Positions 49,922-64,000 of a stretch of 64,000 bases of DNA are shown piece after piece. The notes beneath the pieces are model-generated. The model had not been told where the DNA came from and did no database searches. It saw only the letters and a program-made list of their open reading frames with translations. Source of the stretch: Adhaeribacter swui (GTDB lineage: Bacteria > Bacteroidota > Bacteroidia > Cytophagales > Hymenobacteraceae); NCBI RefSeq assembly GCF_014217805.1, contig NZ_CP055156.1:2610585-2674584 (forward strand), given 5' to 3'. Made by a program: the position numbers and the translations under genes. Each line of letters begins with the position of its first letter. The first letter of the stretch is position 1.

Positions 49922-50655
49922 TGCTGACTTGTATTGCCGTCGACGATGAACCGCTGGCTCTAGGCCTGGTCTGTGCTTTTATTCAACAAACGCCTTTTTT
50001 AAACCTGGTGGGCCGTTATTCCAGCGCCATCGAGGCTTTAAAAGGTTTGCATGCGCAGCCGGTAGATTTGATTTTTCTGGATATTCAAATGCCTGATTTA
50101 ACCGGCATTGAACTAGCCCGGGTATTGGATAAAGGTCAGGGTAAAAGTCCGCGGGTAATTTTCACCACCGCTTTTAACCAGTTTGCCCTGGAAGGTTACC
50201 GCGTAGATGCCTTGGATTATTTGGTAAAGCCCTTTAATTACGAAGAATTTTTGCGCGCCGCTACTAAAGCCAAGGCGTATTTTGATTTAATTCAACCAGA
50301 TCCTAAACCGGTATTGGCCAGCCTCGTGCCCGAAGATGAGTATCTTTTTTTAAAAATTGAGTATCAATTGGTGCGCATTGCTTACAAAGATATTTTGTAC
50401 ATCGAGGGTTTAAAAGATTACGTGAAGGTGCATCTGCAAAACGAAGCAAAGCCTTTGTTATCTTTAACCAGCCTGAAGAACTTAGAAGAAAAACTGCCTT
50501 CCGGACGATTTATGCGCATTCACCGGTCGTATATTGTGGCCCTGGATAAGATTAAAGCCATTACCCGCAACACCGTGCAAATCGGCGAAATTACCATTGC
50601 CGTGAGTGACCAGTACAAAGAAAACTTTAATCAGTTTTTAAGTAAGTGGGTGTGA
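49921..50655 (+). CDS. LytTR family response regulator
   Basis: This 244-residue protein has a receiver domain (residues 1-118; DDEPLALGLV at the start, acceptor Asp54 in FLDIQMPDLTG, Lys in YLVKPFNYEEF) and a LytTR DNA-binding domain (about 145-243; LYIEGLKDYVKVHL, RFMRIHRSYIVALDKI). It is the output partner of the overlapping LytS kinase gene. Targets are unknown; a repeat-rich spacer follows. Confidence 0.96.
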   Translation: MLTCIAVDDEPLALGLVCAFIQQTPFLNLVGRYSSAIEALKGLHAQPVDLIFLDIQMPDLTGIELARVLDKGQGKSPRVIFTTAFNQFALEGYRVDALDYLVKPFNYEEFLRAATKAKAYFDLIQPDPKPVLASLVPEDEYLFLKIEYQLVRIAYKDILYIEGLKDYVKVHLQNEAKPLLSLTSLKNLEEKLPSGRFMRIHRSYIVALDKIKAITRNTVQIGEITIAVSDQYKENFNQFLSKWV

Positions 50656-50693
50656 GAGGTTGATTTTTTAAATTTTTGTATTACTTGTTTTTA

Positions 50694-50874
50694 CTTGGAG
50701 CCTTTTCAAGTCTCCAAACTGCAGTGCTAACTAACTTGCGGGCTACAAGTTCTGCCTCATGGCCGGCAGGCCTCGTTTGGCTCTTCCGGGCTGTCTAAGC
50801 TTGTTTTCCTCCTTACGTCGGAATGCCTGCGGCACCACAACCTTAGAAGGCCCACCACAGCCAAACTGATGTCA
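50694..50874 (+). repeat. R repeat, copy R3
   Basis: Landmarks in order are CTTGGAGCCTTTTCAAGTC, GGCCGGCAGGCCTCGTTTGG, CCTTACGTCGGAA, the hairpin TGCC-TGC-GGCA and CAGCCAAACTGATGTC. The GTTTGGCT/AGCCAAAC stem is intact. It is most similar to R2. Confidence 0.85.
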
Positions 50875-51057
50875 TTCTTTTTTAGGTGCGGCTTTTCGGA
50901 CGCACCTAGTAAATAAGATATGTAATGAAACTAAATTCTTGGGTTGCAATTAACGACAAAAATTTAAGGAAAAACCATTTAGTTCTGATTCGATTTTCTA
51001 TAACTTAATGATAGTGAAGTCAAACAATTTCGTATTACTACTCTAAAAAAGGTAAAA

Positions 51058-51260
51058 GCCGTAGCTAAGTATAAAGACACCAGTTTGGCTGTGGAGCACC
51101 TGCCAGGGTTCCGGTGTGGCATAGCCACATTCCGCAGCGGAGCGAGGAAAGGAAAGCTGGCGAGTGCGGAAGAGCCAAACGAGGCCCGCCGGCCATGAGG
51201 CAAACTCAGCCTGTTCAAACAAGATGGAACCTGTGCCTGGAGACTTGAAAAGGCTCCAAG
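51058..51260 (-). repeat. R repeat, copy R4 (inverted relative to R3)
   Basis: On the minus strand it reads CTTGGAGCCTTTTCAAGTC, GGCCGGCGGGCCTCG, then the hairpin TGTGGC-TAT-GCCACA and CAGCCAAACTGGTGTC. The end extends into TTAGCTACGGCTTTTAC, matching the end of R1. Confidence 0.85.
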
Positions 51261-51290
51261 TAATACTCAATCAAAGAACAAATTTTAAAA

Positions 51291-52862
51291 TTATTCTTTA
51301 TCTAAATATTCTTTTAATTCCGAAATGCTTTTAATCCCAAATCGCTGCGTTTGCTCGCGCCGCATCATTAAAGCGTAAGCATTATTAAACCCAATGGGCG
51401 GCAACCAGGTAATCTGATACTGTTTTTGAAAGGCGGTTTGCACAAACTTATACACCTTTTCTTTGTTAGTGCCAAGTTGCTCTAATTGAGCAGGAGTAGG
51501 CTGTAAAATAACCAGCAAACCGGTGCCGGTATATTCCGGATACAAATCAATCTGATTATTCGTTAAGGCATCAAAGCAAATTTTAGTGCCGCCCAAACCA
51601 GTTTTCGTTTCTACTTGGTAATCGGAGTATCCTTGAATGAGTTGGCGGTACATGCTGGCCAAAATATATTGTTCCCCGAAAATCTTAGAACCTATCCGGA
51701 TGGTGCCTTTATTACCCTGACGGGCGGGTTGCCATAATTTTTTAAATTTTAAAAAATCCAGGGCAACCTGCTCCGGACTTTGTTTTAAATAATCTACCCG
51801 GTAGTTTAATTCCGTCATGATAGAATCATTAATCTGGCCGACCAACTTATTTAAAATGCCTGCCAATTCCGGAAATTGTTTTAAAGCCGCATTCCGGACA
51901 ATAGGAGCGGCATAATAAGGTGGGAAAATAGCTTTATCGTCTTCCAGAATAACCAGGTCAAAAGCTTTTAACCGGCCGTCGGTAGAGTAGCCACTGATTA
52001 CGTCGAGCTCTTTCTCGAAAGCAGCCTGGTACATTACCGCGTCGCTAATAACTACGTTACGAATGTTTAGCCCGTATTTTTGTTGCAAACCTAAAAAACC
52101 ATCCTGCCGACCCATAAATTCGGGGGTAAACCCGGCGAGTAAGCGGGTGCCAAAAGCGGGCGGAACCAGGTAAAAAGCGGCCAGGAGTACAAAAACAATT
52201 GGAAGCAAACCCAATATCCGCTTCACACTTCTAAATTTAAAATTTTGCAAACGGCCGAGTAAAAAATCAAACAAAATCGCCAATCCTGCAGCGGGTAAAG
52301 CGCCAGCCAGAATCATATTGGAATTGTTTAAAGCAATGCCGCCAAAAATAAATTCGCCCAGCCCACCAGCGGCAATGTAAGCTGCCAGCGTAGCCACGCC
52401 CACGTTAATAACCGTAGCCGTACGGATACCCGCCAGAATAACCGGACAAGCCAAAGGCAGCTCCACTTGTAATAAAATTTGAAATTTGGTCATGCCCATA
52501 CCCTGAGCGGCATCTTTAACGGTGGCATCTACGGCGGTGATACCCGTGTACGTGTTGCGGATAATGGGTAATAAGGCGTACAAAAACAAAGCTGCAATGG
52601 CCGGTTTTGCCCCAATACCCAGCACCGGAATAAGAAAACCCAGTAAGGCAATACTGGGTATGGTTTGCAACATGCCAGCCATGCCTAGTACCAAACCGGC
52701 CAGTTTCTTTTTATCTGCAATTAAAATGCCCAGGGGCAAACCAATGCTTACGGCCAGCAGCAAAGATAAAAATGTGAGTCCGGTATGCGTCACGGTTTGT
52801 TCCAGCAATTTGCCGGACTGTTCCTGCATAAACGAGAATAAAGTAGGAGTATCAGCGGCCAT
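51291..52862 (-). CDS. Osmoprotectant/betaine ABC transporter, fused permease and substrate-binding protein
   Basis: This 523-residue fusion has an OpuCB/ProW-like permease (residues 1-215, five to six membrane helices, with AAQGMGMTKFQILLQVELPLA as the ABC-coupling loop). A membrane anchor near 220-240 leads to an OpuCC/ProX-like binding domain (about 245-523; IRIGSKIFGEQYILASMYRQ, DLYPEYTGTGL). Such fusions tether one binding domain per permease at the outer face of the inner membrane. The ATPase gene overlaps its start by one base. Confidence 0.93.
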   Translation of the reverse strand: MAADTPTLFSFMQEQSGKLLEQTVTHTGLTFLSLLLAVSIGLPLGILIADKKKLAGLVLGMAGMLQTIPSIALLGFLIPVLGIGAKPAIAALFLYALLPIIRNTYTGITAVDATVKDAAQGMGMTKFQILLQVELPLACPVILAGIRTATVINVGVATLAAYIAAGGLGEFIFGGIALNNSNMILAGALPAAGLAILFDFLLGRLQNFKFRSVKRILGLLPIVFVLLAAFYLVPPAFGTRLLAGFTPEFMGRQDGFLGLQQKYGLNIRNVVISDAVMYQAAFEKELDVISGYSTDGRLKAFDLVILEDDKAIFPPYYAAPIVRNAALKQFPELAGILNKLVGQINDSIMTELNYRVDYLKQSPEQVALDFLKFKKLWQPARQGNKGTIRIGSKIFGEQYILASMYRQLIQGYSDYQVETKTGLGGTKICFDALTNNQIDLYPEYTGTGLLVILQPTPAQLEQLGTNKEKVYKFVQTAFQKQYQITWLPPIGFNNAYALMMRREQTQRFGIKSISELKEYLDKE

Positions 52863-53788
52863 CAGCTTTTCCGGTGGTTATGTAGGGCTTGCATTATTTG
52901 ACTAACCTCCGCTGAGTTTTCTGTTACCTTGGAGTTGGGCAGGGGAGTGACAGCCTTGCTTGGGGGTAGCAAATGAGTAAGTGCCTCCCAAATACTCATG
53001 CTGGCGGGTAATTGGCCAATTTCGGTTAAACCAATTTCGGTGAGGGTAAGGGTTTTTAGCTCTAAAGGCAGTTGCTGTTCTTGTAAAAACGAAGCTACAA
53101 AGTTGCTTTGAGGATTAAAAATCAGCTCTTCGGGGGTACCTAGTTGTTCTATTTGGCCTTGTTGCATCAGGCAAATGCGGTCGCCGAGTTCAAACGCTTC
53201 GGTAATGTCGTGGGTAACCATAATTACGGTTTTGCGCTTCAGTTCGTCGAGTTGTAGAAATTCTTGCCGGATGTGGGTGCGGGTAATGGGGTCGAGGGCG
53301 CCGAAGGGTTCATCCAGTAATAATACCGGTGGGTCGGCCATTAAGGCCCGCGCAATTCCCACGCGTTGCTGCTGGCCTCCACTGAGCTGGTCGGGGTACA
53401 AGTGCAGGTGTTCTTCGGAAAGGTGTAATTTCTCAATTAATTCAACTGCCCGGCTTTTAATTCGGTGGGTATCCCACTTCAGCTGGCGGGGTACAATGGC
53501 CATGTTTTCGGCTACGGTATAATGCGGAAACAAACCAGTATGCTGCAGTACGTAACCCATGCTGCGGCGCAATTGCTCGGCAGGAATAGCACTTATCGGC
53601 TGATTTTTTAAAAAGATAGCCCCGGTGGTAGGTTCAATTAACTTATTTAACATGCGCAGAACCGTGGTTTTACCGCAACCGCTGGTGCCCAACAAAATAA
53701 GCGTTTCGCCCTCGTCCACGGTAAACGAAATATCCTGCACTGCTTTTACCGGCCCGTAAGTTTTAGAAACGTGTTTCAGCTCAATCAT
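52862..53788 (-). CDS. Osmoprotectant/betaine ABC transporter ATP-binding protein
   Basis: This 308-residue ATPase has Walker A LLGTSGCGKTTVLRML near residue 32, Q-loop LQHTGLFPHYTVAENM, signature LSGGQQQRVGIARAL near 133, Walker B VLLLDEPFGALDP near 156 and the H-loop VTHDITEAFEL. It is of the OpuBA/ProV class but has only a short C-terminal extension instead of full tandem CBS domains. It is translationally coupled to the permease fusion gene. The system probably imports glycine betaine or a related compatible solute. Confidence 0.94.
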   Translation of the reverse strand: MIELKHVSKTYGPVKAVQDISFTVDEGETLILLGTSGCGKTTVLRMLNKLIEPTTGAIFLKNQPISAIPAEQLRRSMGYVLQHTGLFPHYTVAENMAIVPRQLKWDTHRIKSRAVELIEKLHLSEEHLHLYPDQLSGGQQQRVGIARALMADPPVLLLDEPFGALDPITRTHIRQEFLQLDELKRKTVIMVTHDITEAFELGDRICLMQQGQIEQLGTPEELIFNPQSNFVASFLQEQQLPLELKTLTLTEIGLTEIGQLPASMSIWEALTHLLPPSKAVTPLPNSKVTENSAEVSQIMQALHNHRKS

Positions 53789-54207
53789 TTTTTAAAAAAG
53801 TAGGCGCGAAGCTTCTTCTTCGGTACACAATACACCAGCCTATTACCACCTGCTTCGGGAAAGCAATTTAGAAAATTAAGCCACGGAATTGCACTTATTG
53901 ATTAAAATTCAGAAGGCGGGTAGGTTATCGGTTTACTTAATGCAGTAATGATTTTAGCTATTATTTACTGCAAACATCTTTTATTTTACTTTAATAAGCT
54001 TTCCTTGATTTACAGTTATTAAAAGTTATCAAGTAATCGGAATTAATAACAGCACTAGAGAATCCTTTATCAAGAACAACTTTATAGGTGCCTTTTATTT
54101 TTGGCTGGCCTGGCTGCTGTAGAGTTAGCGCTGTGAGAGGCGCTCTACAGCAGCGATTGCGGGTGGGGAGCGCCTCCTGGATTAACAGGCTGGGTGTTTG
54201 TCAACTA
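53789..54207. other. Spacer with a hairpin repeat
   Basis: No gene is seen. The strong stem-loop at 54114-54153 is followed by GGAGCGCCTCC. The rest is AT-rich. Confidence 0.4.
54114..54153 (+). repeat. AGAGTTAGCGC hairpin, copy 2
   Basis: CTGCTGTAGAG (54114-54124) pairs perfectly with CTCTACAGCAG (54143-54153), an 11-bp stem. The loop begins TTAGCGC, the string that also follows TTAGAG in the copy at 43349. Confidence 0.65.
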
Positions 54208-54981
54208 TCAAACAATAGGTAACGCGCCCCCGTCTACAGAATAATTAGTACCAGTAATATATTTTGCTTCCGAAGAAACAAGAAATGCTACCAGGTTAGC
54301 AATTTCTTCGGGTTCAGCCATTCTGCCTAATGGCACCCCCACTTTGTTCATTACTGTTTTAAATGCCTCGTCAACCGACGTATTGGAAGACTTTGCTATG
54401 TCCTCGATAAACTCCATCATGAGCGGTGTTTTTACCACTCCCGGTGAAACTACGTTTACCCGTATTTCTTTGGAGCCAACTTCGTTTGCCAATGCTTTGC
54501 TGTAAACATTTAATGCTGCCTTGGCTGAGGAATACGACATTGTCAATTCCCAAATGGGTTGTTTAGCAGCGCCCGTAGAGATGTTGATGATTACCCCGTG
54601 TTTTTGTGTAATCATGGAAGGAAGTAACGCTTTGTTGATGCGAACGACAGATAAAAAATTGATTTGCCAATCGTTATGCCAATGTTCGTCCGAAAGTGAG
54701 CTGAAACCACCTCCAGGGCTTAGATTTGCACCCGCATTATTGACGATAATGTCTATCCTGCCATACTTTTCTAATATTTCTTTCGCAATAATTTCCGCAG
54801 CCTCGGGCTGCACAAGATCTGCTGTAATGAAATGATGTTCACTGGTTTGGTCTTTTGGTTCATGGCGGGCAGTAACAACTACTTGCGCCCCGACATTACT
54901 TAATTTGCTGGCTATAGCTTTGCCAATTCCTTTTGTCCCGCCTGTTACCAGGGCAACCTGTCCTTTTAATGAAATGTTCAT
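54208..54981 (-). CDS. SDR family NAD(P)-dependent oxidoreductase
   Basis: The start at 54981 (MNISLKGQVALVTGG, 257 residues) is the family-typical one; a longer frame adds 21 residues of non-conserved sequence spanning the promoter region. The TGGTKGIGKAIA cofactor motif is near residue 13, NNAGANLSPGGG near 80, the active-site Ser/Tyr/Lys in NISTGAAKQPIWELTMSYSSAK (shown in part) near 135-155, and VDGGALPIV closes it. It reduces or oxidises an unknown alcohol/ketone. A Crp/Fnr-type palindrome lies 56 bases upstream, next to the regulator gene at 55060. Confidence 0.93.
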   Translation of the reverse strand: MNISLKGQVALVTGGTKGIGKAIASKLSNVGAQVVVTARHEPKDQTSEHHFITADLVQPEAAEIIAKEILEKYGRIDIIVNNAGANLSPGGGFSSLSDEHWHNDWQINFLSVVRINKALLPSMITQKHGVIINISTGAAKQPIWELTMSYSSAKAALNVYSKALANEVGSKEIRVNVVSPGVVKTPLMMEFIEDIAKSSNTSVDEAFKTVMNKVGVPLGRMAEPEEIANLVAFLVSSEAKYITGTNYSVDGGALPIV

Positions 54982-55036
54982 AATAATACTTGTGTTAAAA
55001 TGAACGGCAAAGGTGGTCGGTTTAAAAACGATACTG

Positions 55037-55052
55037 GTTGCCATTTGGCAAC
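55037..55052. promoter_or_regulatory. Crp/Fnr-type operator GTTGCC-ATTT-GGCAAC
   Basis: This perfect 16-bp palindrome has the geometry of an FNR box (TTGxx-N4-xxCAA). It lies between a Crp/Fnr regulator gene and the SDR gene it precedes on the minus strand. The box sits where it could control SDR transcription. Confidence 0.6.
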
Positions 55053-55059
55053 AAATGCA

Positions 55060-55629
55060 TTAGCGAATATTTTTTCTTATCCGGCTTAACGAAAATCTGG
55101 TAACGCCTAAGTAAGAAGCAATATGCGCTTGTGGAACACGATTGGCAAGGGTGGGGAATTGTTCTAAAAATGACAAGTAGCGTGTAACCGTATCTTTCGA
55201 AACTAAGGCGGTTCTTCGTTCTAAGTGTATCTGAAATGCTTTTTGAACGGCTTTGTTTACTATTTTATCCCAATCGATAATGGTTTGGTAAAGTTCTTCC
55301 CAATCCTGCTTCGAAAACACAATAAACTTACAGTCGGTAACGGCCTGCAAATAGTCCGAAGATACAAGGCAGGCTACAAAATTCTCGTAATCGACAACTA
55401 ACCGGTTTTCGTCAATAAAATAGGTAGTAATTTCTTCGCCCTTGTTATCGTAAGAGAACATGCGAAGAACACCTTGCACCACAAAACCAACTTGTTTTGG
55501 GATTTTGCCCGCTTCCGAAAAGTACTCGTTTTTTTTAAGTTCCAGTGCTGTTGCTTTGCTTGTGATAAGCTCGATTTGCTGTTTGTTTAAGGTGCCAAAC
55601 TGTAAAATATAGGCAATCAATTCTTCCAT
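55060..55629 (-). CDS. Crp/Fnr family transcriptional regulator
   Basis: This 189-residue protein has a cyclic-nucleotide-binding-like domain (KNEYFSEAGKIPKQVGFVVQGVLRM near residues 33-58; DENRLVVDYENF) and a C-terminal helix-turn-helix (AHIASYLGVTRFSLSRIRKNIR). It lacks the Fe-S cysteine pattern of FNR. The SDR gene follows on the same strand after a gap that contains a perfect 16-bp palindrome, so autogenous or pathway-specific control of the SDR enzyme is likely. Confidence 0.92.
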   Translation of the reverse strand: MEELIAYILQFGTLNKQQIELITSKATALELKKNEYFSEAGKIPKQVGFVVQGVLRMFSYDNKGEEITTYFIDENRLVVDYENFVACLVSSDYLQAVTDCKFIVFSKQDWEELYQTIIDWDKIVNKAVQKAFQIHLERRTALVSKDTVTRYLSFLEQFPTLANRVPQAHIASYLGVTRFSLSRIRKNIR

Positions 55630-55727
55630 TGCGCTAAAGTTAGCACTAGTTGTTTGTATGGTATGTGTCGTTTAATGAAAAGTGTCTTTTTGGCAAGCAG
55701 TAACAGTCGGCGTGAAGTTGTGCCGGC

Positions 55728-55792
55728 GTCTAACATTGCATGTAACGTTTCTGCTAAGGCACGTTTTAATGTGCTTTAGCTTGTGTTGTGAG
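55728..55792 (-). other. attC-like site of cassette 3
   Basis: Read on the minus strand it opens with CTCACAAC, pairs CTAAAGCAC with GTGCCTTAG (one wobble) and closes with GTTAGAC, a perfect GTTRRRY. Its first arm is the exact complement of GTTGTGAG, the 8 bases just upstream of the gene it follows (plus-strand 56265-56272). The spacing to the stop codon is 8 bases. Confidence 0.6.
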
Positions 55793-55800
55793 ATGTAATG

Positions 55801-56253
55801 TTACTCAAGTACTAAGGTTTTTTTGTACTGGTTTACAGTTACCGTTCTTGCTGGCTGACCTGTTTTAGAGGTAACATAACAATTTTCAAGCATAAGATTC
55901 CATCCCTTTCTTAAGTCTATTTTCTTTGAGGTCAGCATACCATTTATCCTTATGTCTAAATCAACTATTTGTATGGGGGCAATTTTATTCAGATTGGTTC
56001 TCTTATTTTTATATAAAATCCAAAGACCTTTATCATCTTGATAAATGGTTAATTGCGTAATACCAGTAGAAAAATCTGACTGAACAATTGCATTACTTAC
56101 AACTTCCTGCCCATTTATTCTTACATCTACAGTGTCAGACTCAAAGCAGCTTCCAATTGTTAGTGAGAAGTCATACTTTTTAATCTTTTTTTGGCTAATA
56201 CAGGCTACAGCTAAGAGTTGAATATATAATAGTGTAAGAAGGCATTTCTTCAT
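55801..56253 (-). CDS. Hypothetical lipoprotein in cassette 3
   Basis: This 150-residue protein starts MKKCLLTLLYIQLLAVAC, with the lipobox Cys at residue 18. The rest is Ile/Val/Lys-rich and mostly beta, including DVRINGQEVVSNAIVQSDF, a pair KSKIDLRKGW-like near 120 and a final KKTLVLE. No family is recognised. Boundaries match an integron-type cassette, with the left edge at 56272 and the attC-like site at 55728-55792. Its base composition is more AT-rich than the flanking SDR and regulator genes, consistent with foreign origin. Confidence 0.65.
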   Translation of the reverse strand: MKKCLLTLLYIQLLAVACISQKKIKKYDFSLTIGSCFESDTVDVRINGQEVVSNAIVQSDFSTGITQLTIYQDDKGLWILYKNKRTNLNKIAPIQIVDLDIRINGMLTSKKIDLRKGWNLMLENCYVTSKTGQPARTVTVNQYKKTLVLE

Positions 56254-56264
56254 AGTTTTTATAA

Positions 56265-56272
56265 CTCACAAC
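56265..56272 (-). other. Left boundary of cassette 3
   Basis: GTTGTGAG on the minus strand, 12 bases before the gene start, is the exact complement of the first arm of the attC-like site at 55785-55792. Confidence 0.5.
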
Positions 56273-56402
56273 TATTAGATAAACAACATAACCTACGCTT
56301 ATCTGCACTATGTACGGAGGCGAAAGGGCTTATTTCAAATTTAAATTTTGTGCCTGTTTGCCCTTTTATGATGTTATATCGGTTGGCTAATATATAAGAA
56401 AA

Positions 56403-56573
56403 TTACAGATTATCCAAGGGGCTAACTATTTTATCCAGGGCATGAGTAGTAACGTGGGGTATATCTCTGTAGTTTCGCTGTTACGATGCCCCAGTAAAGC
56501 CTGGAAGTAACGCAGATCCGTACCTTGTTCTAATAAGTGGGTAGCAAAGCTATGGCGTATAACAGATTGTTGT
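56403..56573 (-). pseudogene. Tyrosine recombinase (integrase) C-terminal remnant, frameshifted
   Basis: The minus strand encodes [20 protein letters not shown], then [16 protein letters not shown], the box II of a tyrosine recombinase (Arg, His, Arg and the nucleophile Tyr all present). One base is then missing, and the sequence continues in the next frame as [17 protein letters not shown] and a stop, the normal C-terminal end of these proteins. An upstream in-frame stop and the lack of any further homology show that the N-terminal three quarters are gone. The THV...SPLD ending is also that seen in integron integrases, and cassette 3 starts 130 bases downstream on the same strand. Confidence 0.85.
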
Positions 56574-56646
56574 GTTTAGAGCTAAAGTTCTTTTTTTAAA
56601 AATAAATCAAAATAAAATTTGGATGTAAAAAAAAGCTTTTCTTTAT

Positions 56647-56669
56647 TTGTCTATCAATTCTATAGACAA
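56647..56669. promoter_or_regulatory. Perfect palindrome at the leader ORF start
   Basis: TTGTCTAT (56647-56654) and ATAGACAA (56662-56669) are exact complements separated by seven bases, and the last A is the first base of the leader ORF's ATG. As DNA it may be a repressor operator; as RNA it would place the start codon in a stem. Confidence 0.55.
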
Positions 56670-56803
56670 TGTATAAAACTTTAAAAATTAAAGCCGCTTC
56701 TCCGCTACTTGCATTGCGTTTGGCCTTTGCCAAAAACAAAGCAGGTTTTAACTACGCGGTAGGTGGTTGCGCCCCCATGCGTTCCTGTTGTTGTTGCGGC
56801 TAA
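56669..56803 (+). CDS. Putative leader peptide ending in four Cys codons
   Basis: This 44-codon ORF reads MYKTLKIKAASPLLALRLAF, a basic, amphipathic start, and finishes with GGCAPMRSCCCCG and a stop. Four consecutive Cys codons (TGT TGT TGT TGC) immediately before Gly and TAA are the pattern of attenuation leader peptides, where ribosome stalling at rare charged tRNA senses the amino acid. It lies upstream of the SusC-SusD-DoxX operon. Alternatively it is a small metal- or redox-active Cys peptide. Conservation cannot be judged here. Confidence 0.6.
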   Translation: MYKTLKIKAASPLLALRLAFAKNKAGFNYAVGGCAPMRSCCCCG

Positions 56804-56850
56804 GCGGTTTATTCTAAAATTTTTAAATTTCTTTTTTAAAACTTGTCCTA

Positions 56851-57012
56851 ATGGAGTTTATCAGCCTTACCTTATTTGTATTGTTCCTGGTGCTATTACA
56901 CAAAAAAGCCAGCATGTTTGGCTTAGCTGCCCGATTAGAACCAGTACCATTAAAGCCATCTTTTTCTAACCAGAAGGTAGATTTTAAGAAAAAGCCGATG
57001 CTGGATTTTTAA
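56851..57012 (+). CDS. Small single-pass membrane protein ORF
   Basis: This 53-residue frame reads MEFISLTLFVLFLVLLHKK, one strong membrane helix with positive charges after it, then a polar, Lys-rich tail ending KKKPMLDF. It lies between the Cys leader ORF and the hairpin upstream of susC. The helix plus positive-inside tail is gene-like, but it is short and no family is recognised, so it may be part of a leader region. Confidence 0.4.
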   Translation: MEFISLTLFVLFLVLLHKKASMFGLAARLEPVPLKPSFSNQKVDFKKKPMLDF

Positions 57013-57055
57013 AATATAATGGGAAGTACCCACTCAGAATAGCTAAAAATAAAAA

Positions 57056-57107
57056 AGGACTCTCCCGATGGCAACGCCTCTGGTCCAGGCATTATCGGGA
57101 AAGTCCA
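57056..57107 (+). promoter_or_regulatory. Long hairpin 34 bases ahead of susC
   Basis: GGACT and TCCCGAT (57057-57069) pair with ATCGGGA and AGTCC (57094-57106), twelve pairs with one mismatch. An inner GCCT/AGGC stem sits in the 24-base loop. No T-run follows. Position and stability suggest an RNA leader element (attenuator or riboswitch-like) in front of the SusC start at 57141. I could not match it to a known family. Confidence 0.6.
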
Positions 57108-57140
57108 GGAATTAATTGTTAAATCAAATATACGAAACTT

Positions 57141-60100
57141 ATGAAAAAGCTGCTCTCCCGAAGCAGTAAAGTATTCTTTTTGCTTATACTTTATGGAACA
57201 CCTTTACTAGCCCATTCTTTTTCTGCTTCTTTAACTTCTAATACTACCACCCGGAACCGGATTAATCCGGATGTGCCGGTAACCGGCAAAGTAACCGGCC
57301 CCAGCGGCGAACCGTTGCCCGGCGTAACCATCGTGTTAAAAAACACCACCATCGGTACTACTACCAGCACCGACGGTACTTTTCAGTTAACCGTACCCAA
57401 TGGTACTGGTACTCTCGTAGCTTCCTTTATTGGGTTTGCTACCAAAGAAATTCCGGTAAATGGGCAAAATCCGGTGCAGGTTACCCTGGCCGAAGATACC
57501 AAAGCTTTAAAAGAAGTGGTGGTGGTAGGATATGGCAGCCAGGAACGCAAGAATTTGGTGGGGTCAGTAAGTAAAGTAAACCCCTCCGAAACCAAAGACA
57601 TTCCGGGCGGTAATTTCGCGGCGCAGTTACAAGGCAAAGCCTCGGGCGTACAAATTTCGTCGAGCACCGGGGTGCCCGGCGAAGGTATTTTTATCCGGGT
57701 GCGGGGCGCTACTTCTATCAACGCCAGCAACGACCCACTGTACGTGGTAGACGGCGTATTTGTGAATAATAACAGCTTACAAACCGTAAATACCGGCGGT
57801 AAAGCTACCTCGCCCATTGCTGATATTAACCCGGCTGATATTGAGAGTATTGAAGTTTTAAAAGATGCCAACGCTACGGCCATTTATGGTTCCAGGGGAG
57901 CCAACGGGGTAGTAATTGTTACCACTAAACGCGGGAGCTACAACACTAAACCGAAAGTTACCTTCAATACCTCCCAAGGTTGGGCCAAAGCAGCCAAACT
58001 TTGGGATTTAACCACCGGTCCGGAGCACGCGGCTTTAATTAATGAATACTGGATTAACTCGGGTATTGATAATCCGGCTTTAAATCAAACCTTTGAAAAC
58101 CGTCCTTTCCGGCCTGTTTCGGAAGGCGGACGCGGTCTACCCGAGGAGCAACAAACCTACGACCGGTTGGGCGATGTGTTCCGGACAGCCCGCCTGACGA
58201 ATTACGATTTATCTTTGCAGGGCGGTAACGCGAATACCCGCTACTACATTGGAGGGGGCTATACCAAACAAGAAGCTATCATTAAACCGGTCTACCTGCA
58301 ACGGGCTAATTTTAAAGTAAACCTCGACCAGCAAGTAAGCGACAAAGTGCAGGTAGGCGTCAGCAATACCGTATCGCGCACGTACCGCAACCAGGCCCGC
58401 GCCGGCGATGGCCCGCAGGGGGGCTTGTTGCAATCGGCGCTGCATACCCCCACTTACCTGCCTAAAACCAACCCGGATGGTAGCCCGGCCCGTTGGGCCG
58501 GTTTCGATAACCTGGATGTATTGCTAAATAACTACGAAGTTAACTCCACCAGCTTGCGCTACATCGGTAATTTGTTCGTGGATGCCGAGATTATACCGGG
58601 CTTAAAATTCCGGAGCAGCTGGGGCGTCGATTATAATAATTACGACGAATCGGAATACTGGAACGATAAAACGCAGCTCGGCGCGGCTCCTACCAATGGT
58701 TTAGCTACTTCGGGCTTAACCCAAAAAACTTCCTGGTTAAACGAGCAAACCTTGACGTACCGCAAGAATTTCGGCGGCAAACATACCATTGGGGCTTTAG
58801 TGGGGAATACTTTGCAAAGCGACGTACTAAACAACACTTCGGCCCAGGGCAGCAACTTCGCTAGTAATTCCTTTACCCTAATCTCCGATGCCGCTACCCG
58901 TACCTCTACCCAAACCTGGACGAAAAATTCTTTGGCTTCTTTCTTCTCCCGGTTAGATTATAATTTCGATGATAAATATTTGCTGGAGTTTACCATTCGG
59001 GCCGATGGTTCTTCCCGCTTCGGGGGCAATAACAAATGGGGCTATTTCCCGTCGATTGGTGGTGCGTGGCGCTTAAAAGAAGAAGAATTTTTAAAAAATG
59101 TAACGGCCCTAAGCGATTTAAAATTACGGGGTAGTTTTGGGGTAACCGGTAACCAAAACGGCATCAACGATTTTGCGCCTTTAGGTCTCTGGGCCGGTGG
59201 CGTAAGTTACGTGGATAATGCTACTAGTGGCGATAAACCGGGTATTGCGCCGCAACAAGTGGCTAATCCTAACTTAAAATGGGAGCGTACCCGCCAGGTA
59301 AACGCCGGGGTAGATGTTGGTTTATTTGATGGCCGCATTGGTCTGGAGTTTAATTATTACTCTAAATACACCACCGATGCTTTGCTGCAATTACCCGTAC
59401 CGGCCCGCACCGGTTTTGCGACCTATATTACTAATGCCGGTGAAATCAGCAACAAAGGATTTGAGTTGGGTATCAACACGGTTAACGTTCAAGCCGGCGA
59501 TTTTACCTGGAATACGAATTTCAACATCTCCCGAAACATCAATAAAATTGAAAAACTGCCTATTCCCACCGTTTACGGCAGCCGCGATTTACTGCGGGCG
59601 CAGGAAGGTTACCCGATGTATTCGTTCTGGGCTTACAAGCAAAGTTACGTAGACCCGCAAACCGGTAATGCCGTTTTTGAAGACGTAAATAAAGACGGAC
59701 AAATTACCGCCGCTGACCGGCAAATTTTAGGCACCGCTTCGCCGAAATTCTTCGGGGGCTTAACTAACAATTTCACTTACAAAGGTTTTGATGCCGGCGT
59801 ACTCATATCCTTCCAATACGGCAATAAAGTCTGGAACCACAACCGGTTCTTCGGCGAAGGCGGTGGTACCCGCGATGCCAACCGGGTAATTTTCGCGAGC
59901 CAGTTAGATCGCTGGCAAAAGCCCGGCGACGAGACGGATGTTCCGCGCTTAACCGGCATCGGAAACAACTACCGCTTAGAGCAAAACAGCCGCTTTTTAG
60001 AAGATGGCTCGTTCCTGCGCCTGCGTTCGCTTACCGTAGGGTATTCACTTCCTAAAAATCTTTTATCCCGGGTTAAGGTCGAAAATCTGCGCCTGTACGT

Positions 60101-60251
60101 GGTGGGAACCAATTTATTCCTGCTCACCAAATACACTGGTCCGGACCCTGAGTCGAACGTATCCAACACCGACCAGAATACGCAAGGACTTGACCTCGGA
60201 ACGCCGCCGCAGCCGCGCACCATTCAATTCGGAATTAACATTACCATTTAA
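57141..60251 (+). CDS. SusC/RagA family TonB-linked outer-membrane protein
   Basis: This 1036-residue protein is the TonB-dependent channel of a SusCD nutrient importer. The signal peptide ends around residue 28. The CarboxypepD_reg-like domain spans about 48-128 (VTGKVTGPSGEPLPGVTIVL). The plug includes KEVVVVGYGSQERKNLVGSV near residue 130 and GSRGANGVVIVTTKRGS near 250, and a 22-strand barrel reaches the final QFGINITI. It pairs with the SusD lipoprotein encoded 13 bases on. The length and VVVGYG motif are standard. The ligand is not evident; the downstream DoxX genes and Cys-codon leader suggest a sulfur compound. Confidence 0.95.
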   Translation: MKKLLSRSSKVFFLLILYGTPLLAHSFSASLTSNTTTRNRINPDVPVTGKVTGPSGEPLPGVTIVLKNTTIGTTTSTDGTFQLTVPNGTGTLVASFIGFATKEIPVNGQNPVQVTLAEDTKALKEVVVVGYGSQERKNLVGSVSKVNPSETKDIPGGNFAAQLQGKASGVQISSSTGVPGEGIFIRVRGATSINASNDPLYVVDGVFVNNNSLQTVNTGGKATSPIADINPADIESIEVLKDANATAIYGSRGANGVVIVTTKRGSYNTKPKVTFNTSQGWAKAAKLWDLTTGPEHAALINEYWINSGIDNPALNQTFENRPFRPVSEGGRGLPEEQQTYDRLGDVFRTARLTNYDLSLQGGNANTRYYIGGGYTKQEAIIKPVYLQRANFKVNLDQQVSDKVQVGVSNTVSRTYRNQARAGDGPQGGLLQSALHTPTYLPKTNPDGSPARWAGFDNLDVLLNNYEVNSTSLRYIGNLFVDAEIIPGLKFRSSWGVDYNNYDESEYWNDKTQLGAAPTNGLATSGLTQKTSWLNEQTLTYRKNFGGKHTIGALVGNTLQSDVLNNTSAQGSNFASNSFTLISDAATRTSTQTWTKNSLASFFSRLDYNFDDKYLLEFTIRADGSSRFGGNNKWGYFPSIGGAWRLKEEEFLKNVTALSDLKLRGSFGVTGNQNGINDFAPLGLWAGGVSYVDNATSGDKPGIAPQQVANPNLKWERTRQVNAGVDVGLFDGRIGLEFNYYSKYTTDALLQLPVPARTGFATYITNAGEISNKGFELGINTVNVQAGDFTWNTNFNISRNINKIEKLPIPTVYGSRDLLRAQEGYPMYSFWAYKQSYVDPQTGNAVFEDVNKDGQITAADRQILGTASPKFFGGLTNNFTYKGFDAGVLISFQYGNKVWNHNRFFGEGGGTRDANRVIFASQLDRWQKPGDETDVPRLTGIGNNYRLEQNSRFLEDGSFLRLRSLTVGYSLPKNLLSRVKVENLRLYVVGTNLFLLTKYTGPDPESNVSNTDQNTQGLDLGTPPQPRTIQFGINITI

Positions 60252-60263
60252 GTTTCTACAGCA

Positions 60264-61613
60264 ATGAAATTTTCTAAAAATACCAGATATATACTGCCCT
60301 TTGTGCTGACCCTGAGTTTAGCTTCCTGCGATAATTTCCTGGAAGTAAAGCCGCGGCAAGCCATTGTAGATGACCAAACCATTGTGGATGGGGTAACGGC
60401 CGAAACCGCCGTACGGGGTTTGTACGGAGCGCTGGCGGGGGCTAATTATTACGGCACTAACTTTCAGTCCATCGGTTATTTTCAGGGCGATAATATTCAA
60501 TGGACCGGTTCGCAATCTATCGTGGCGCAGTTTATTAACCACAACGTAACCGCCGATAATGCTACGGTGGCCAGTACCTGGGCGGCTATTTACCAGACCA
60601 TTAACCGGGCCAACCAGATAATCGAGAAGGTGCCAGCCGTTACCGATGCCTCGTTTACGCAGGAGAAAAAGAACCAATTATTAGGCGAAGCTTACTTTGT
60701 GCGGGCCTTAGCTTACTTTGATCTGGCGCGTACCTGGGGTGGCGTACAATTAGTACTCACACCTACCAAAGAACTTACCGATAACGAAGGTATCCGTCGC
60801 AGTTCGGTAACCGAGACCTACGCGCAGGTTTTAAAAGATTTAACCGAAGCCGAAAAATTATTACCCGAAACAACCAACCGTTACCGGGCTACTAAGAAAA
60901 CGGCCTGGGCTTTAATGGCTCGGTACTACCTATACCAAAAAGACTGGGCGCAAGCCGAAACGTACGCCAGTAAACTGGTGGATGACGTGGCCAATTACAA
61001 ACTGGTAAAACCTTACAGCGCTTTCTTCGCCAACAATGCCCGCGGCACCGAAGAATCTATTTTTGAAATTTATTACAGCCCGACTTCGACTAACGGACAC
61101 CGCAACAGCTGGCAACCACCGGCCAATGGCGGCACCCGGCAATGGGCGCCCAACGAAGCTTTTGTAAATTTGGTAAATGACCCCACGGTAGGCGGGAATC
61201 GCAACGCGTTAGTAGCGAAAACTACCCAAGGATTGTGGTACGGTAACATGTATTACCGCAGCCCCGCTACCGATCCCACTTTTGTGATCCGGATTGCCGA
61301 GTTGTTTTTAATCCGCGCCGAAGCCCGCGCCCAGCTGAATAAGTTACCAGAAGCTTTAGCAGATTTAAATGCCGTCCGCCAGCGGGCCGATTTAACGCCT
61401 AGCCCGGCGGTAACTCAACCCGAAATATTGCTGGCCATTGAAAACGAACGCCGGGTAGAATTTGCCTTTGAACCACACCGTTGGTATGATTTAATCCGGA
61501 CTGGCCGGGTAGCCGAAGTTTTAGGTGTAACCGATGCCAATAAATACGTGCTGCCCATACCAATTGATCAGTTAAACGCTGACAAAGCTTTAGAGCAAAA
61601 TCCGGGATATTAG
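60264..61613 (+). CDS. RagB/SusD family nutrient-binding lipoprotein
   Basis: This 449-residue protein has a signal ending at the lipobox TLSLASCDNFLEVKP (Cys at residue 22). SusD-like TPR helices follow: VRALAYFDLARTWGGVQLVL near residues 143-163 and KKTAWALMARYYLYQKDWAQA. The terminal RVEFAFEPHRWYDLIRTGR is diagnostic of the family. It is the surface lid of the SusC channel encoded 13 bases upstream. Confidence 0.95.
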   Translation: MKFSKNTRYILPFVLTLSLASCDNFLEVKPRQAIVDDQTIVDGVTAETAVRGLYGALAGANYYGTNFQSIGYFQGDNIQWTGSQSIVAQFINHNVTADNATVASTWAAIYQTINRANQIIEKVPAVTDASFTQEKKNQLLGEAYFVRALAYFDLARTWGGVQLVLTPTKELTDNEGIRRSSVTETYAQVLKDLTEAEKLLPETTNRYRATKKTAWALMARYYLYQKDWAQAETYASKLVDDVANYKLVKPYSAFFANNARGTEESIFEIYYSPTSTNGHRNSWQPPANGGTRQWAPNEAFVNLVNDPTVGGNRNALVAKTTQGLWYGNMYYRSPATDPTFVIRIAELFLIRAEARAQLNKLPEALADLNAVRQRADLTPSPAVTQPEILLAIENERRVEFAFEPHRWYDLIRTGRVAEVLGVTDANKYVLPIPIDQLNADKALEQNPGY

Positions 61614-61639
61614 TCAATAGATTATGGTCTATATAAACT

Positions 61640-61735
61640 GCGAGCGTCCACGCTCGTGGTTCCCATGGGTTGGCCTCTGGCCAGCGTAGGCGGGACGCCT
61701 ACCCATTCTCGCCACAAACGTGGCGTGTTTGCGAC
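61640..61735 (+). repeat. REP-like multi-hairpin repeat in the susD-doxX spacer
   Basis: Four short perfect stems occur in a row: CGAGCG/CGCTCG (61641-61656), GGCC-TCT-GGCC (61672-61682), GTAGGCG-GGA-CGCCTAC (61686-61702) and GCCAC/GTGGC (61711-61724). The first unit is shared with 4416-4432. It may stabilise the susCD mRNA end and reduce expression of doxX. Confidence 0.65.
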
Positions 61736-61823
61736 AGAACAAGTAGTCAATACAATAGAAAGTCCTGATACTTGATTCTTGATACCTGATTCTTAATACC
61801 TGATACAATAAAAATTTAAAAAT

Positions 61824-63251
61824 ATGGCTATTGCAGAAATCTCCTTACCTGCTTCTAAAAAGAAAGCCCCCGAAAAGGTAAATGTACCAGAGCCGCTGGT
61901 TCCTACGTCTGATTGGAACGGGCTGGAGAAAACAACTTTCCGTTTTTTCTTTATTTACTTTTTTATTCAGGCCGTACCGCTCGACTGGAAGTACTTCCGG
62001 AATCTGTTTTCCATTAACTGGCTCGATTTACATTTCCGGGATATTTTTTACCTGAGTCGGTACACGCCGCAGTTCTTTTCTACTCCCGAAAATGCCACGG
62101 GCTGGGGTATAAATTCTTTTGCCGATTGGGGAGTAGTTTTGGTAATTGCGGTATTAGGAACTGCCATTTGGTCGGCCACGGATCGTAACCGCAAAGAATA
62201 CAATCAGCTTTATTACTGGCTACGAGTAATTCTGCGCTACCGGTTGGTCATCGGGTTAATTGCCTATGCTTTTATTAAAATTTACCCGATGCAGTCGCCG
62301 CTACCTTCCATCAGTAACCTGAACACCCACTACGGTGATTTTAACGCCTGGAAAATTTTTTCTTTGACTTTAGGTATTGTACCCAATTACCAATCGTTTC
62401 TGGGCTTGGTAGAGTTACTGGCCGCGGTATTGCTGTTTTTCCGGAAAACGGCTACTATTGGTGCTTTCCTGGTGTTGCCGTTTACCGGTAACGTGTTTAT
62501 GTCGAATTTGGCTTACGAAGGCGGCGAGTACGTGTACAGTTTTTGCCTGATTACCATTGCTTTGTTTTTGTTTGCTTACGATGGCAAACGGCTCTTTACC
62601 TTACTTACGCTGGAACAACCAACCTTGCCGAACCGTTTTCATCCGAAATTTACCGATCAGCAAAAAAGTGCGCGGCTAGTATTAAAAAGTGCTTTTGTAT
62701 TCGTATTTGTATTGCTGTACGGGTACAAAACCTACGCTGTTTATCACAAAGAAGGCTCATACCACTTCCCGAAAACCGCTGGCTTACCGGGTGCCACAGG
62801 CTTGTATAATGTAAAAGAATTTCGCTTGAACAACCAGGTTCTGCCTTATTCGGTTACCGACCCTATTCGCTGGCAGGACGTGGTTTTTGAAAAATGGGCA
62901 ACCATCAGCATTCGCTCGAACCAAAAAGCTCCTCTGGAAGAAGCCAAAACCGAAGAAATATTCCTGAACGACCAGGACCGCAACTACGAAGAAGCCGGCT
63001 CCGGTGGCCGTCAGTATTATTCTTACCAGGTTAATGCCGCTAACCAAACCTTAATCCTGCAGAACAAAAACAAAAACCGGCCGAACGATAAATTAACCCT
63101 GAAGTACGAACGGCCCAATGGTAATCAGATTATTCTGTCTGGCCATAACGAAAGGCAAGAACCTGTGTACGTAGTGCTGGAAAAAATAAACAAGAAATAC
63201 CTGTTGGACGAAGTGGCTCGCGAAGGTCGCCAGAAACCGATGAAGTTATAA
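61824..63251 (+). CDS. DoxX-like family membrane protein, large form
   Basis: This 475-residue protein has about six to seven membrane segments in residues 30-320 (FFFIYFFIQAVPLDWKYF; VVLVIAVLGTAIWSATD) and a soluble C-terminal part from about residue 330 (LPYSVTDPIRWQDVVFEK). The pattern of helices and YYWLRVILRYRLVIGLIAY fits the DoxX/MauE-like redox-membrane superfamily, whose DoxX members carry the small subunit of thiosulfate:quinone oxidoreductase. A specific function is not established. It lies 210 bases after susD and is a paralogue of the next gene. Confidence 0.75.
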   Translation: MAIAEISLPASKKKAPEKVNVPEPLVPTSDWNGLEKTTFRFFFIYFFIQAVPLDWKYFRNLFSINWLDLHFRDIFYLSRYTPQFFSTPENATGWGINSFADWGVVLVIAVLGTAIWSATDRNRKEYNQLYYWLRVILRYRLVIGLIAYAFIKIYPMQSPLPSISNLNTHYGDFNAWKIFSLTLGIVPNYQSFLGLVELLAAVLLFFRKTATIGAFLVLPFTGNVFMSNLAYEGGEYVYSFCLITIALFLFAYDGKRLFTLLTLEQPTLPNRFHPKFTDQQKSARLVLKSAFVFVFVLLYGYKTYAVYHKEGSYHFPKTAGLPGATGLYNVKEFRLNNQVLPYSVTDPIRWQDVVFEKWATISIRSNQKAPLEEAKTEEIFLNDQDRNYEEAGSGGRQYYSYQVNAANQTLILQNKNKNRPNDKLTLKYERPNGNQIILSGHNERQEPVYVVLEKINKKYLLDEVAREGRQKPMKL

Positions 63252-63287
63252 GTAGATAAATTCTTATTACAATTTTAAAAAACAGAT

Positions 63288-64000
63288 ATGGCTACCTTAG
63301 AAACCATCGAACCTACCACCGATCAGAAAGCCCGTGTGGCTGCGGGGAACGAGATTGGTACTCCCGCCAATATTACCGCTACACCGGAATGGAAAACCTA
63401 CCAGAAAGTAGCGTTCCGGATTGCTTTTATCTTTTTTGTTTGCCTTTCTATTCCGAACGGAGTGGAGTGGTACAAGCACGTGGCTAACATCGACTGGACT
63501 AATTTACATTACCGCGACTTATACGACATTGCCCGCTTTGGCTCTGGCATAGATTTGTTCGGAAATACCTTCTTCGGGAGTAAACTTAATGGCTATGCCA
63601 ACTGGATTGTTACTTTTCTGGTAGCCGTAGTGGGCGGGTTCATCTGGACGTGGGTAGACGCTAAAAAAAATCCGACTCCTAAAAATTACAATGTGTTATA
63701 TTACTGGTTGCGGGTAATTGTGCGCTACCGGGCAGGTATTGGTATTATCGGGTTTGGATTTACTAAATTATTGCCGGTGCAAATGCCATATCCTTCATTG
63801 GGGTTATTAGAAACCAATCTGGGGGATTTTACCGCTCAAAAAATATACTGGTTATCTATCGGTATTGTGCCGTGGTACCAGATTTTTGCGGGCGTGGTGG
63901 AGGTAGCCGCTGGTACCTTGTTGTTTTTCCGGAAAACTACCACTTTGGGTGCTATTTTGTTATTCGGCGCTTTGGGTGATATTGTGTACGTGAACTTTGC
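63288..64000 (+). CDS. DoxX-like family membrane protein, paralogue (partial)
   Basis: This frame is open from the ATG at 63288 to the window end (237 codons), starting MATLETIEPTTDQKARVAAG. The alignment with the preceding gene is obvious throughout: NVLYYWLRVIVRYRAGIGII, KIYWLSIGIVPWYQIFAGVV and TLLFFRKTTTLGAILL each match the preceding protein at the same point. The two genes are therefore a tandem duplication. The C-terminal part is missing from the window. Confidence 0.8.
   Translation, partial: MATLETIEPTTDQKARVAAGNEIGTPANITATPEWKTYQKVAFRIAFIFFVCLSIPNGVEWYKHVANIDWTNLHYRDLYDIARFGSGIDLFGNTFFGSKLNGYANWIVTFLVAVVGGFIWTWVDAKKNPTPKNYNVLYYWLRVIVRYRAGIGIIGFGFTKLLPVQMPYPSLGLLETNLGDFTAQKIYWLSIGIVPWYQIFAGVVEVAAGTLLFFRKTTTLGAILLFGALGDIVYVNF

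Follow-up and report, generated by a model that had tools for sequence, protein, structure and literature searches.

The window analysed here, a 64,000-nt stretch of the Adhaeribacter swui genome, contains toward its 3′ end an operon of susC, susD and two genes for DoxX-like membrane proteins, preceded by a candidate promoter and operator, a leader ORF that closes on a run of cysteine codons, a second small ORF and a hairpin (Table 1). A preliminary description had read the leader and the hairpin as parts of a cysteine-sensing attenuator in front of a sulfur-related locus. Further upstream, on the minus strand at 56400-56575, lies what we take to be the remnant (37 residues) of a tyrosine-recombinase-like C-terminus, without an intact gene.

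Table 1. Features of the leader region and the operon, in window positions.
Feature	Position	Strand	Basis
Candidate promoter: TTTG, 20-nt spacer, TTTATTTG	56618..56649	+	AAAATTTGGA and TTTATTTGTC conserved in L061-L064
Palindrome TTGTCTAT-N7-ATAGACAA, candidate operator, overlaps leader start	56647..56669	.	motif matches in congeners
Leader ORF, 44 codons, Cys run CCCCG-stop	56669..56803	+	ORF list and translation; related ORFs elsewhere
Putative regulatory tail of the leader ORF, C-A-P-M-R-S-C-C-C-C-G-stop	56768..56803	+	translation
Second small ORF (53 aa); by eye, probably a single membrane helix	56851..57012	+	conserved in congeners
Conserved hairpin, loop GCCTCTGGTMCAGGC, 34 nt 5′ of susC	57057..57106	+	covariation in 5 species
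susC, TonB-dependent transporter	57141..60251	+	named by eye
susD	60264..61613	+	PF14322 and PF07980
DoxX-like membrane protein 1	61824..63251	+	label of the preliminary description; no Pfam or NCBIfam match
DoxX-like membrane protein 2	63288..64000, past window end; full length L060:7373-9031	+	label

The link to sulfur had originally been drawn through DoxX. A Pfam search returned no match for either DoxX-like protein, nor did NCBIfam for the first; an argument through DoxX alone is weak. The sulfur link is independent of this label, however, because the same region, beyond the window, encodes a SoxC sulfite dehydrogenase (TIGR04555, 481 bits, cut-off 420), BshB1 (TIGR04001, 271 bits, cut-off 182) and a YeiH-like transporter (TIGR00698, 100 bits, under the cut-off of 233). 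An FAD oxidoreductase and a cytochrome c are also found there, and related leaders elsewhere precede metY and cysH, so that the leaders do lie upstream of sulfur or cysteine genes. A second SusC gene beyond the window (L060:19214 onward) has no Cys-run ORF within the scanned stretch.

Translation of the leader ORF gives MYKTLKIKAASPLLALRLAFAKNKAGFNYAVGGCAPMRSCCCCG followed by a stop, with cysteine at codons 40-43 and glycine at codon 44, just as had been described. Across all six frames of the window, four-Cys runs within three codons of a stop occur at two places, the second being a 9-residue stop-to-stop frame at 49635, while 60 windows simulated from trinucleotide statistics contained a mean of 0. 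The 44-aa peptide has no Pfam match, and a tblastn search of 390 Cytophagales genomes found no strong homologue besides the peptide itself (next E value, 0.015). Scanning 30 of the tblastn loci for Cys-ended ORFs recovered the window, L007 and L009, plus L022 on the opposite strand; L007 sits within a ccoG-like gene and was rejected as a short leader, and L009 is real. The pattern PMRxCCC occurs at 29 places in the 390 genomes, where, by eye, only the window and genome G383 present a short Cys-run ORF with a start codon; the remaining places, located in longer or other frames, were rejected as leaders. The G383 copy is a metY leader, which shares the tail motif CxPMRxCCCC with the window leader.

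Homologous loci were collected by searching the SusC protein in 100 Hymenobacteraceae genomes. Among the 30 loci fetched and scanned, 12 show a clear Cys-run ORF 5′ of susC (L061, L063, L065, L066, L068-L075) and four a looser form (L082-L085), the remainder being unclear or without one; Cys-run ORFs ahead of SusC genes are thereby seen in other genera as well. Within the genus, an ATG-started run of at least three Cys codons is kept in three of five orthologous loci (L061, L063, L066). L062 retains CC only, and L064 keeps GCPLMRGCCSC without a standard start codon. DoxX genes are present in the genus and in L091, L092 and L093 and are missing from L094-L107, so Cys-run ORFs also occur outside DoxX operons.

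In a phylum-wide set of 40 named DoxX loci, the start of susC was clear in 30 and unclear in five, and the other five had no susC upstream. Eight of the 30 carry a Cys-run ORF within 700 nt, compared to a shuffle mean of 0.14 of 30 (maximum 1) and to 0 on the opposite strand. With the susC start placed by hand, three of four further loci were positive (L225, L244 and L246; none in L248), L254 being left out. This brings the DoxX-SusCD loci with a Cys-run ORF to 11 of 34, the other 23 being negative by the strict rule. The positive loci include Larkinella, Mucilaginibacter, Pedobacter, Flavobacterium and one Chitinophaga, and the strict rule found no Cys-run ORF in the DoxX loci of Runella, Dyadobacter, Hymenobacter and seven of eight Chitinophaga; a few of the negative loci have CC or an inner CCCC. 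The expectation that homologous loci carry such an ORF thus held, in 11 of the 34 only. An Rfam scan of eight named DoxX loci found no riboswitch.

Upstream alignments from two genera revealed a conserved block directly 5′ of the first Cys ORF, which Rfam assigns to the SAM-I riboswitch family (RF00162). There were seven RF00162 matches in five of eight loci and 11 matches in all eight loci of a second set, scoring 59-79 bits in these two sets (cut-off, 44.4), and SAM-I aptamers are carried by 59 of 60 Hymenobacteraceae genomes. We assembled 107 aptamer sites from 62 genomes of this family, made up of 30 loci, 60 further fetched sites and 17 of 18 initial matches (the eighteenth duplicates L135), and applied a fixed rule: an ATG, GTG or TTG within 45 nt past the aptamer, an ORF of at most 80 aa, and at least three Cys among its last 12 residues. 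A Cys-run ORF lies behind the aptamer at 66 of the 107 sites, as compared to a mean of 2.6 and a maximum of 6 in 40 rounds of dinucleotide shuffling. While the poor conservation in L062 and L064 would suit an ORF that arose by chance and has no function, these counts, together with the 8 of 30 DoxX loci against 0.14 in shuffles, strongly disfavour a chance origin for the leader class, and we regard a functionless ORF as scarcely credible.

The position of the leader start is fixed. All 66 leaders have an in-frame ATG (50) or GTG (16) at +6 to +12 past the aptamer, 30 of them at +9; where several in-frame starts were possible, the one at +6 to +12 was taken. This codon is the first in-frame start past the aptamer in 62 of the 66; in the other four (L098, L099, L100 and L157), another start codon precedes it, at +1 or +2. 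In most of 11 examples compared, the 3′ strand of P1 reads UAUAAAUU, and in all 66 the leader start sits where formation of P1 would block initiation. With P1 typically ending in UAUAAAUU and the leader start within 12 nt, SAM binding should block leader translation. An example from the A. swui genome itself is the metY leader, MKNSLYLFGLTNKPFTTAKSAFPLVYRATTPNWCMCCCCC, which lies 8 nt past a SAM-I aptamer and ahead of metY; the other SAM aptamer of this genome, before metH, has no Cys-run ORF. In L096-L100, two Cys-run ORFs follow each other between the SAM aptamer and susC (L096:969-1286, L097:15784-16128, L098:1090-1407, L099:15913-16235 and L100:15207-15522).

The window leader is of a different kind. 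An Rfam search of 50000-64000 returned no family up to E = 1, so this leader is without a SAM-I aptamer. The covariance search suggested in the preliminary description therefore came back empty for the locus itself and, at other loci, detected SAM-I riboswitches ahead of homologous ORFs.

Which genes carry the aptamer-leader stack follows a pattern. A Cys-run ORF stands behind the aptamer at all metY (23/23), APC permease (8/8), M14 carboxypeptidase (6/6), ATP-grasp (5/5) and antiporter-like (2/2) sites, and at most susC (11/13) and cysH (8/9) sites, together 63 of 66. Conversely, it is absent from metH (0/27), homoserine dehydrogenase (0/4), transsulfuration (cystathionine lyase/synthase-like; 0/5) and MetZ-like (0/1) sites, together 0 of 37; the four aptamer sites outside these clusters include three with the ORF. 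Clusters were defined by BLAST, with one representative each named by family models, several of them under the curated cut-off, and susC named by eye. A Fisher test of this partition gives 7e-25, a value that is descriptive only, since the sites are orthologues of one another and, being related by descent, are not independent events. The split is best put as an observation, not a law. MetY makes homocysteine or cysteine from sulfide and could equally be filed under methionine, and MetZ should fix sulfide too. L145, at first sight a metY exception, was rejected as such, the protein being MetZ-like (510 bits, cut-off 522); in this locus (L145:201 onward, genome G396), the gene's own ATG lies at +7 past the aptamer, the usual place of the leader ORF. 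Cys-run ORFs at unrelated loci without sulfur genes would speak against a cysteine leader. This check did not refute it: the ORFs found at other loci lie behind SAM riboswitches and include the leaders of metY and cysH, although for some of the genes served (M14, APC, ATP-grasp, antiporter) a role in sulfur metabolism is unproven.

Outside the family, the stack thins out. The 30 best-scoring aptamer sites of a phylum-wide search have no Cys-run ORF, although 22 of them, judged by eye, precede metY-like genes. Among 20 aptamer sites from other families of the order and class, three show a clear one (the second site of L301, L307 and L309), in each case before a metY-like gene and at +7 or +9. 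L295 and L303, also before metY-like genes, have CC only, and no Cys-run ORF was seen at L300 (metY-like), L306 (SusC-like), L310 (cysteine-desulfurase-like) or the metH-like sites. The stack is a trait of the Hymenobacteraceae lineage and some relatives, not of the whole phylum.

The 66 aptamer-linked leaders, of median length 39 aa, concentrate their cysteines at the end, with 41% Cys among the last 12 residues versus 1.5% in the body. Methionine is enriched about eightfold in the same tails (7.7% versus 1.0%), so that some of the leaders may sense Met in addition to Cys. The final residue before the stop is Cys in 49 of the 66. Bodies differ among most gene clusters, while the Cys tail beside the stop is retained. 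The ATP-grasp leaders of L140, L162 and L187 are conserved in the body as well as in the tail. Well-conserved bodies of this kind are what one would expect if the Cys-run peptide were itself the product, as a metal-binding, redox or modified peptide rather than a sensor. We consider this very unlikely, given that bodies vary among most clusters while the tail is kept, that 66 ORFs occupy a fixed place past the aptamer, and that the window peptide has no Pfam match.

Both Cys codons are in use (219 TGT, 130 TGC), a sign that selection acts on the amino acid. The UGY repeat might instead act as RNA only, untranslated, as a pairing partner or protein site, and pairing between Cys tails and the intergenic stretch is indeed slightly stronger than in shuffles (-23.8 versus -22.4 kcal/mol; sd of shuffle means, 0.4). 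Against this stand the two codons, the fixed place of the start codon and the fact that the run closes on an in-frame stop (Cys is the last residue in 49/66), so that we hold an untranslated repeat to be highly improbable.

For a census of the A. swui genome, we used the patterns CCCC and CCCx-stop with TAA or TAG, by which GTG or TTG starts and other endings are missed. They occur at 67 and 41 places, respectively, and the reversed patterns at 29 and 19. Inspection of all places left four ATG-started short Cys-run ORFs outside long ORFs: that of metY, that of the window susC, one at about C3:635761 beside the SusC-like gene of L319, and a fourth, at C3:4202643, upstream of a reductase-like gene. 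Of these, only the metY copy is preceded by an aptamer. The last lies in L402 (C3:4189500-4203500), where MKNFLIISFLQTNNCCCCS precedes a ferredoxin-NADP-reductase-like gene near suf-like genes (names by eye).

In place of an aptamer, the window leader has a candidate promoter, which fits the Bacteroidota -33/-7 type with one mismatch and which would put the RNA start about 12 nt upstream of the leader ATG. The adjoining palindrome recurs as a motif: allowing at most one mismatch, there are 24 matches in eight congeneric genomes (two of which are one palindrome read on both strands), compared to a single match for the pattern read backwards. Copies precede SusC-like genes both with a Cys-run ORF (L201, L202, L214) and without one (L213, L215, L216, L220), as well as YeiH-like genes without one (L218, L221, L224); at L209 the ORF is present, and the next gene was not found. 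The A. swui genome has one copy ahead of genes for a SusC-like protein, a SusD-like protein and two sulfatases. Another, in L319, separates an Rrf2 gene from the Cys-rich ORF MFENLNCCCSCSQSPGIISMR and its SusC-like gene. The gene row there (L319:9891-14140; C3:626000-640200) runs dnaA-like, Rrf2, operator, Cys-rich short ORF, SusC-like. The Rrf2 protein matches the Pfam Rrf2 family with 125 bits, and CymR is the closest informative model (79 bits, cut-off 195). The window promoter-operator may thus be read by a putative Rrf2/CymR-like repressor of the cysteine type, a fair guess from the neighbouring genes in L319 and from the match of the protein to Rrf2.

Between leader and susC, two further elements had been described, and both are present. 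The second small ORF has a hydrophobic N-terminus by eye and encodes a small protein that is conserved among congeners (ISLTLF..LVLLHKKASFFGL); compared with genome G394, 32 codons are identical, five differ synonymously and 17 nonsynonymously. The stem of the hairpin spans 13 positions, one of which is a C.A mismatch in the window, and there is an inner stem of four pairs. Over five congeneric species, four pairs of the stem show changes on both sides and 90.6% of cells pair; the covariation score was reached by 0 of 500 shuffles, although the measure of further pair types did not exceed shuffles. Judged by this comparison of sequences, the hairpin is a genuine RNA structure conserved in the genus; its loop motif GCCTCTGGTMCAGGC occurs once in the A. 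swui genome.

Nothing supports a role for this hairpin as the terminator of an attenuator: no U-run follows it, and a scan of 56200-57300 gave three terminator-like sites, each of them on the minus strand. Classical transcription attenuation, with a stalled ribosome choosing between an antiterminator and an intrinsic terminator formed by the hairpin, could draw on the fact that the hairpin is genuine and conserved, and on terminator-like hairpins between leader and M14 gene in L135, L165, L167 and L100. The latter are of the GCGCTGAGGCAGCGC type with a T-rich tail and constitute the best candidates for true terminators in the set. Yet the window hairpin lacks a U-tract and lies 34 nt 5′ of susC, and terminator-like hairpins between leader and gene occur in just 5 of 65 loci (2.8 in shuffles), so that no general terminator was found. 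We consider classical attenuation unlikely. The hairpin may instead belong to a downstream platform of susC.

Pairing of the Cys tail with the gene start did not exceed that of permuted partners (-16.9 versus -16.3; sd, 0.4), and no uniform attenuator fold emerged from folding 20 metY leaders, from the pairing and terminator tests, or from the alignment of four orthologue sets. An excess of C over G between leader and gene (skew, 0.19), considered as a signature of Rho loading, was set aside because metH leaders without a Cys ORF reach 0.14 and the window 0.04. In the absence of a general terminator and of gene-start pairing above that of permuted partners, Rho-dependent or translational control remains. 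What stands of the proposed ribosome-mediated attenuator is therefore the Cys run, as part of a recurring class largely tied to sulfur genes, and not the terminator role of the hairpin.

We conclude that the leader ORF probably encodes a cis-acting cysteine leader peptide, on which ribosome stalling would control the operon, and that such leaders are probably gated by SAM at 66 of the 107 aptamer sites. Sequence comparison establishes the leader class with its position and its distribution over genes, the aptamer, the operator motif and the hairpin, while translation, stalling, the responses to cysteine and SAM, the repressor and the sign of each effect are inferred. When Cys-tRNA is scarce, the ribosome would stall at the Cys run beside the stop codon and alter the fate of the downstream RNA, either by blocking Rho or by exposing the start region further on; the sulfur-uptake operon would then be expressed. 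With plentiful cysteine, the ribosome would complete the leader and depart, and expression would stay low. At the 66 sites behind an aptamer, whether ribosomes translate the leader in the first place would depend on SAM; in the window, the promoter-operator, perhaps with an Rrf2/CymR-like repressor, would take the place of the riboswitch.

Bacteria have to balance methionine and SAM against cysteine. For the family as a whole, we give an even chance to a two-input sulfur gauge, in which SAM-I would gate the Cys-reading leader and the supply of Cys-tRNA would set where its ribosome stops, such that genes of sulfur assimilation and uptake are on only when SAM and cysteine are both low, while metH and the methionine branch would respond to SAM alone; the window would then represent the second sensor behind a protein-controlled promoter. 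One leader would appear to read both SAM and cysteine, with a metabolite-binding RNA stacked on a translated sensor, and in Hymenobacteraceae this stack stands on most genes where it is metabolically sensible and not on metH and its pathway neighbours. If true, this would be a case in which a riboswitch acts directly on the translation of a further sensor. An aptamer, an ORF start 6-12 nt further on and a Cys-run stop would then make a simple marker for sulfur-responsive genes in environmental Bacteroidota, extending to SusCD systems without known substrates.

Several known systems share parts of this arrangement. Polycysteine leader ORFs of Actinobacteria were predicted in PMC1262725, with experimental work by Canestrari et al. 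2020, as cited in PMC13236596 and PMC9094748. According to the passages of these papers considered here, they likewise are short ORFs with a Cys run near the stop, before cysteine or sulfur genes and without a conserved terminator hairpin, for which PMC1262725 suggested Rho. The leaders described here differ in belonging to another phylum and in preceding SusCD uptake operons, metY, cysH and an M14 peptidase; in addition, 66 of them lie behind SAM-I, two occur in a row in L096-L100, and their tails are enriched in Met.

Riboswitch-controlled upstream ORFs (uORFs) are described in Mycobacterium tuberculosis, where an Mbox precedes pe20 (PMC12810186) and a B12 riboswitch precedes ppe2 (PMC11260477); the former involves Rho-dependent termination, and PPE2 needs uORF translation. 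What they share with our case is a small upstream ORF under the control of an aptamer that has a translational platform. The abstracts of those studies describe no amino-acid-sensing codon run, whereas here the uORF would be a second sensor. In SAM-I (S box) translational platforms, the ribosome binding site lies within the 3′ side of P1 (PMC2258182). The start codon close behind P1 is similar here, but unlike in the platforms of the cited passages, it belongs to a Cys-run leader ORF and not to the metabolic gene. The same source reports tandem SAM-I and AdoCbl riboswitches before Bacillus clausii metE, that is, two sensors for two metabolites in one leader, as we propose; both are aptamers in the B. 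clausii case as presented there, whereas our second sensor would be a translated leader peptide.

Closest in phylogenetic terms, leader-peptide attenuation has been suggested for amino-acid operons of Flavobacterium psychrophilum (PMC9723704), which belongs to the same phylum and has leader peptides ahead of amino-acid biosynthesis operons; the passages of that paper name neither a cysteine leader nor a riboswitch before one. Among the matches listed from the open-licence literature, none concerned Cys-run leaders in Bacteroidota or the pairing of a SAM riboswitch with a Cys leader. Cys-run leaders and riboswitch-controlled uORFs are known separately; within that scope, their combination appears to be new.
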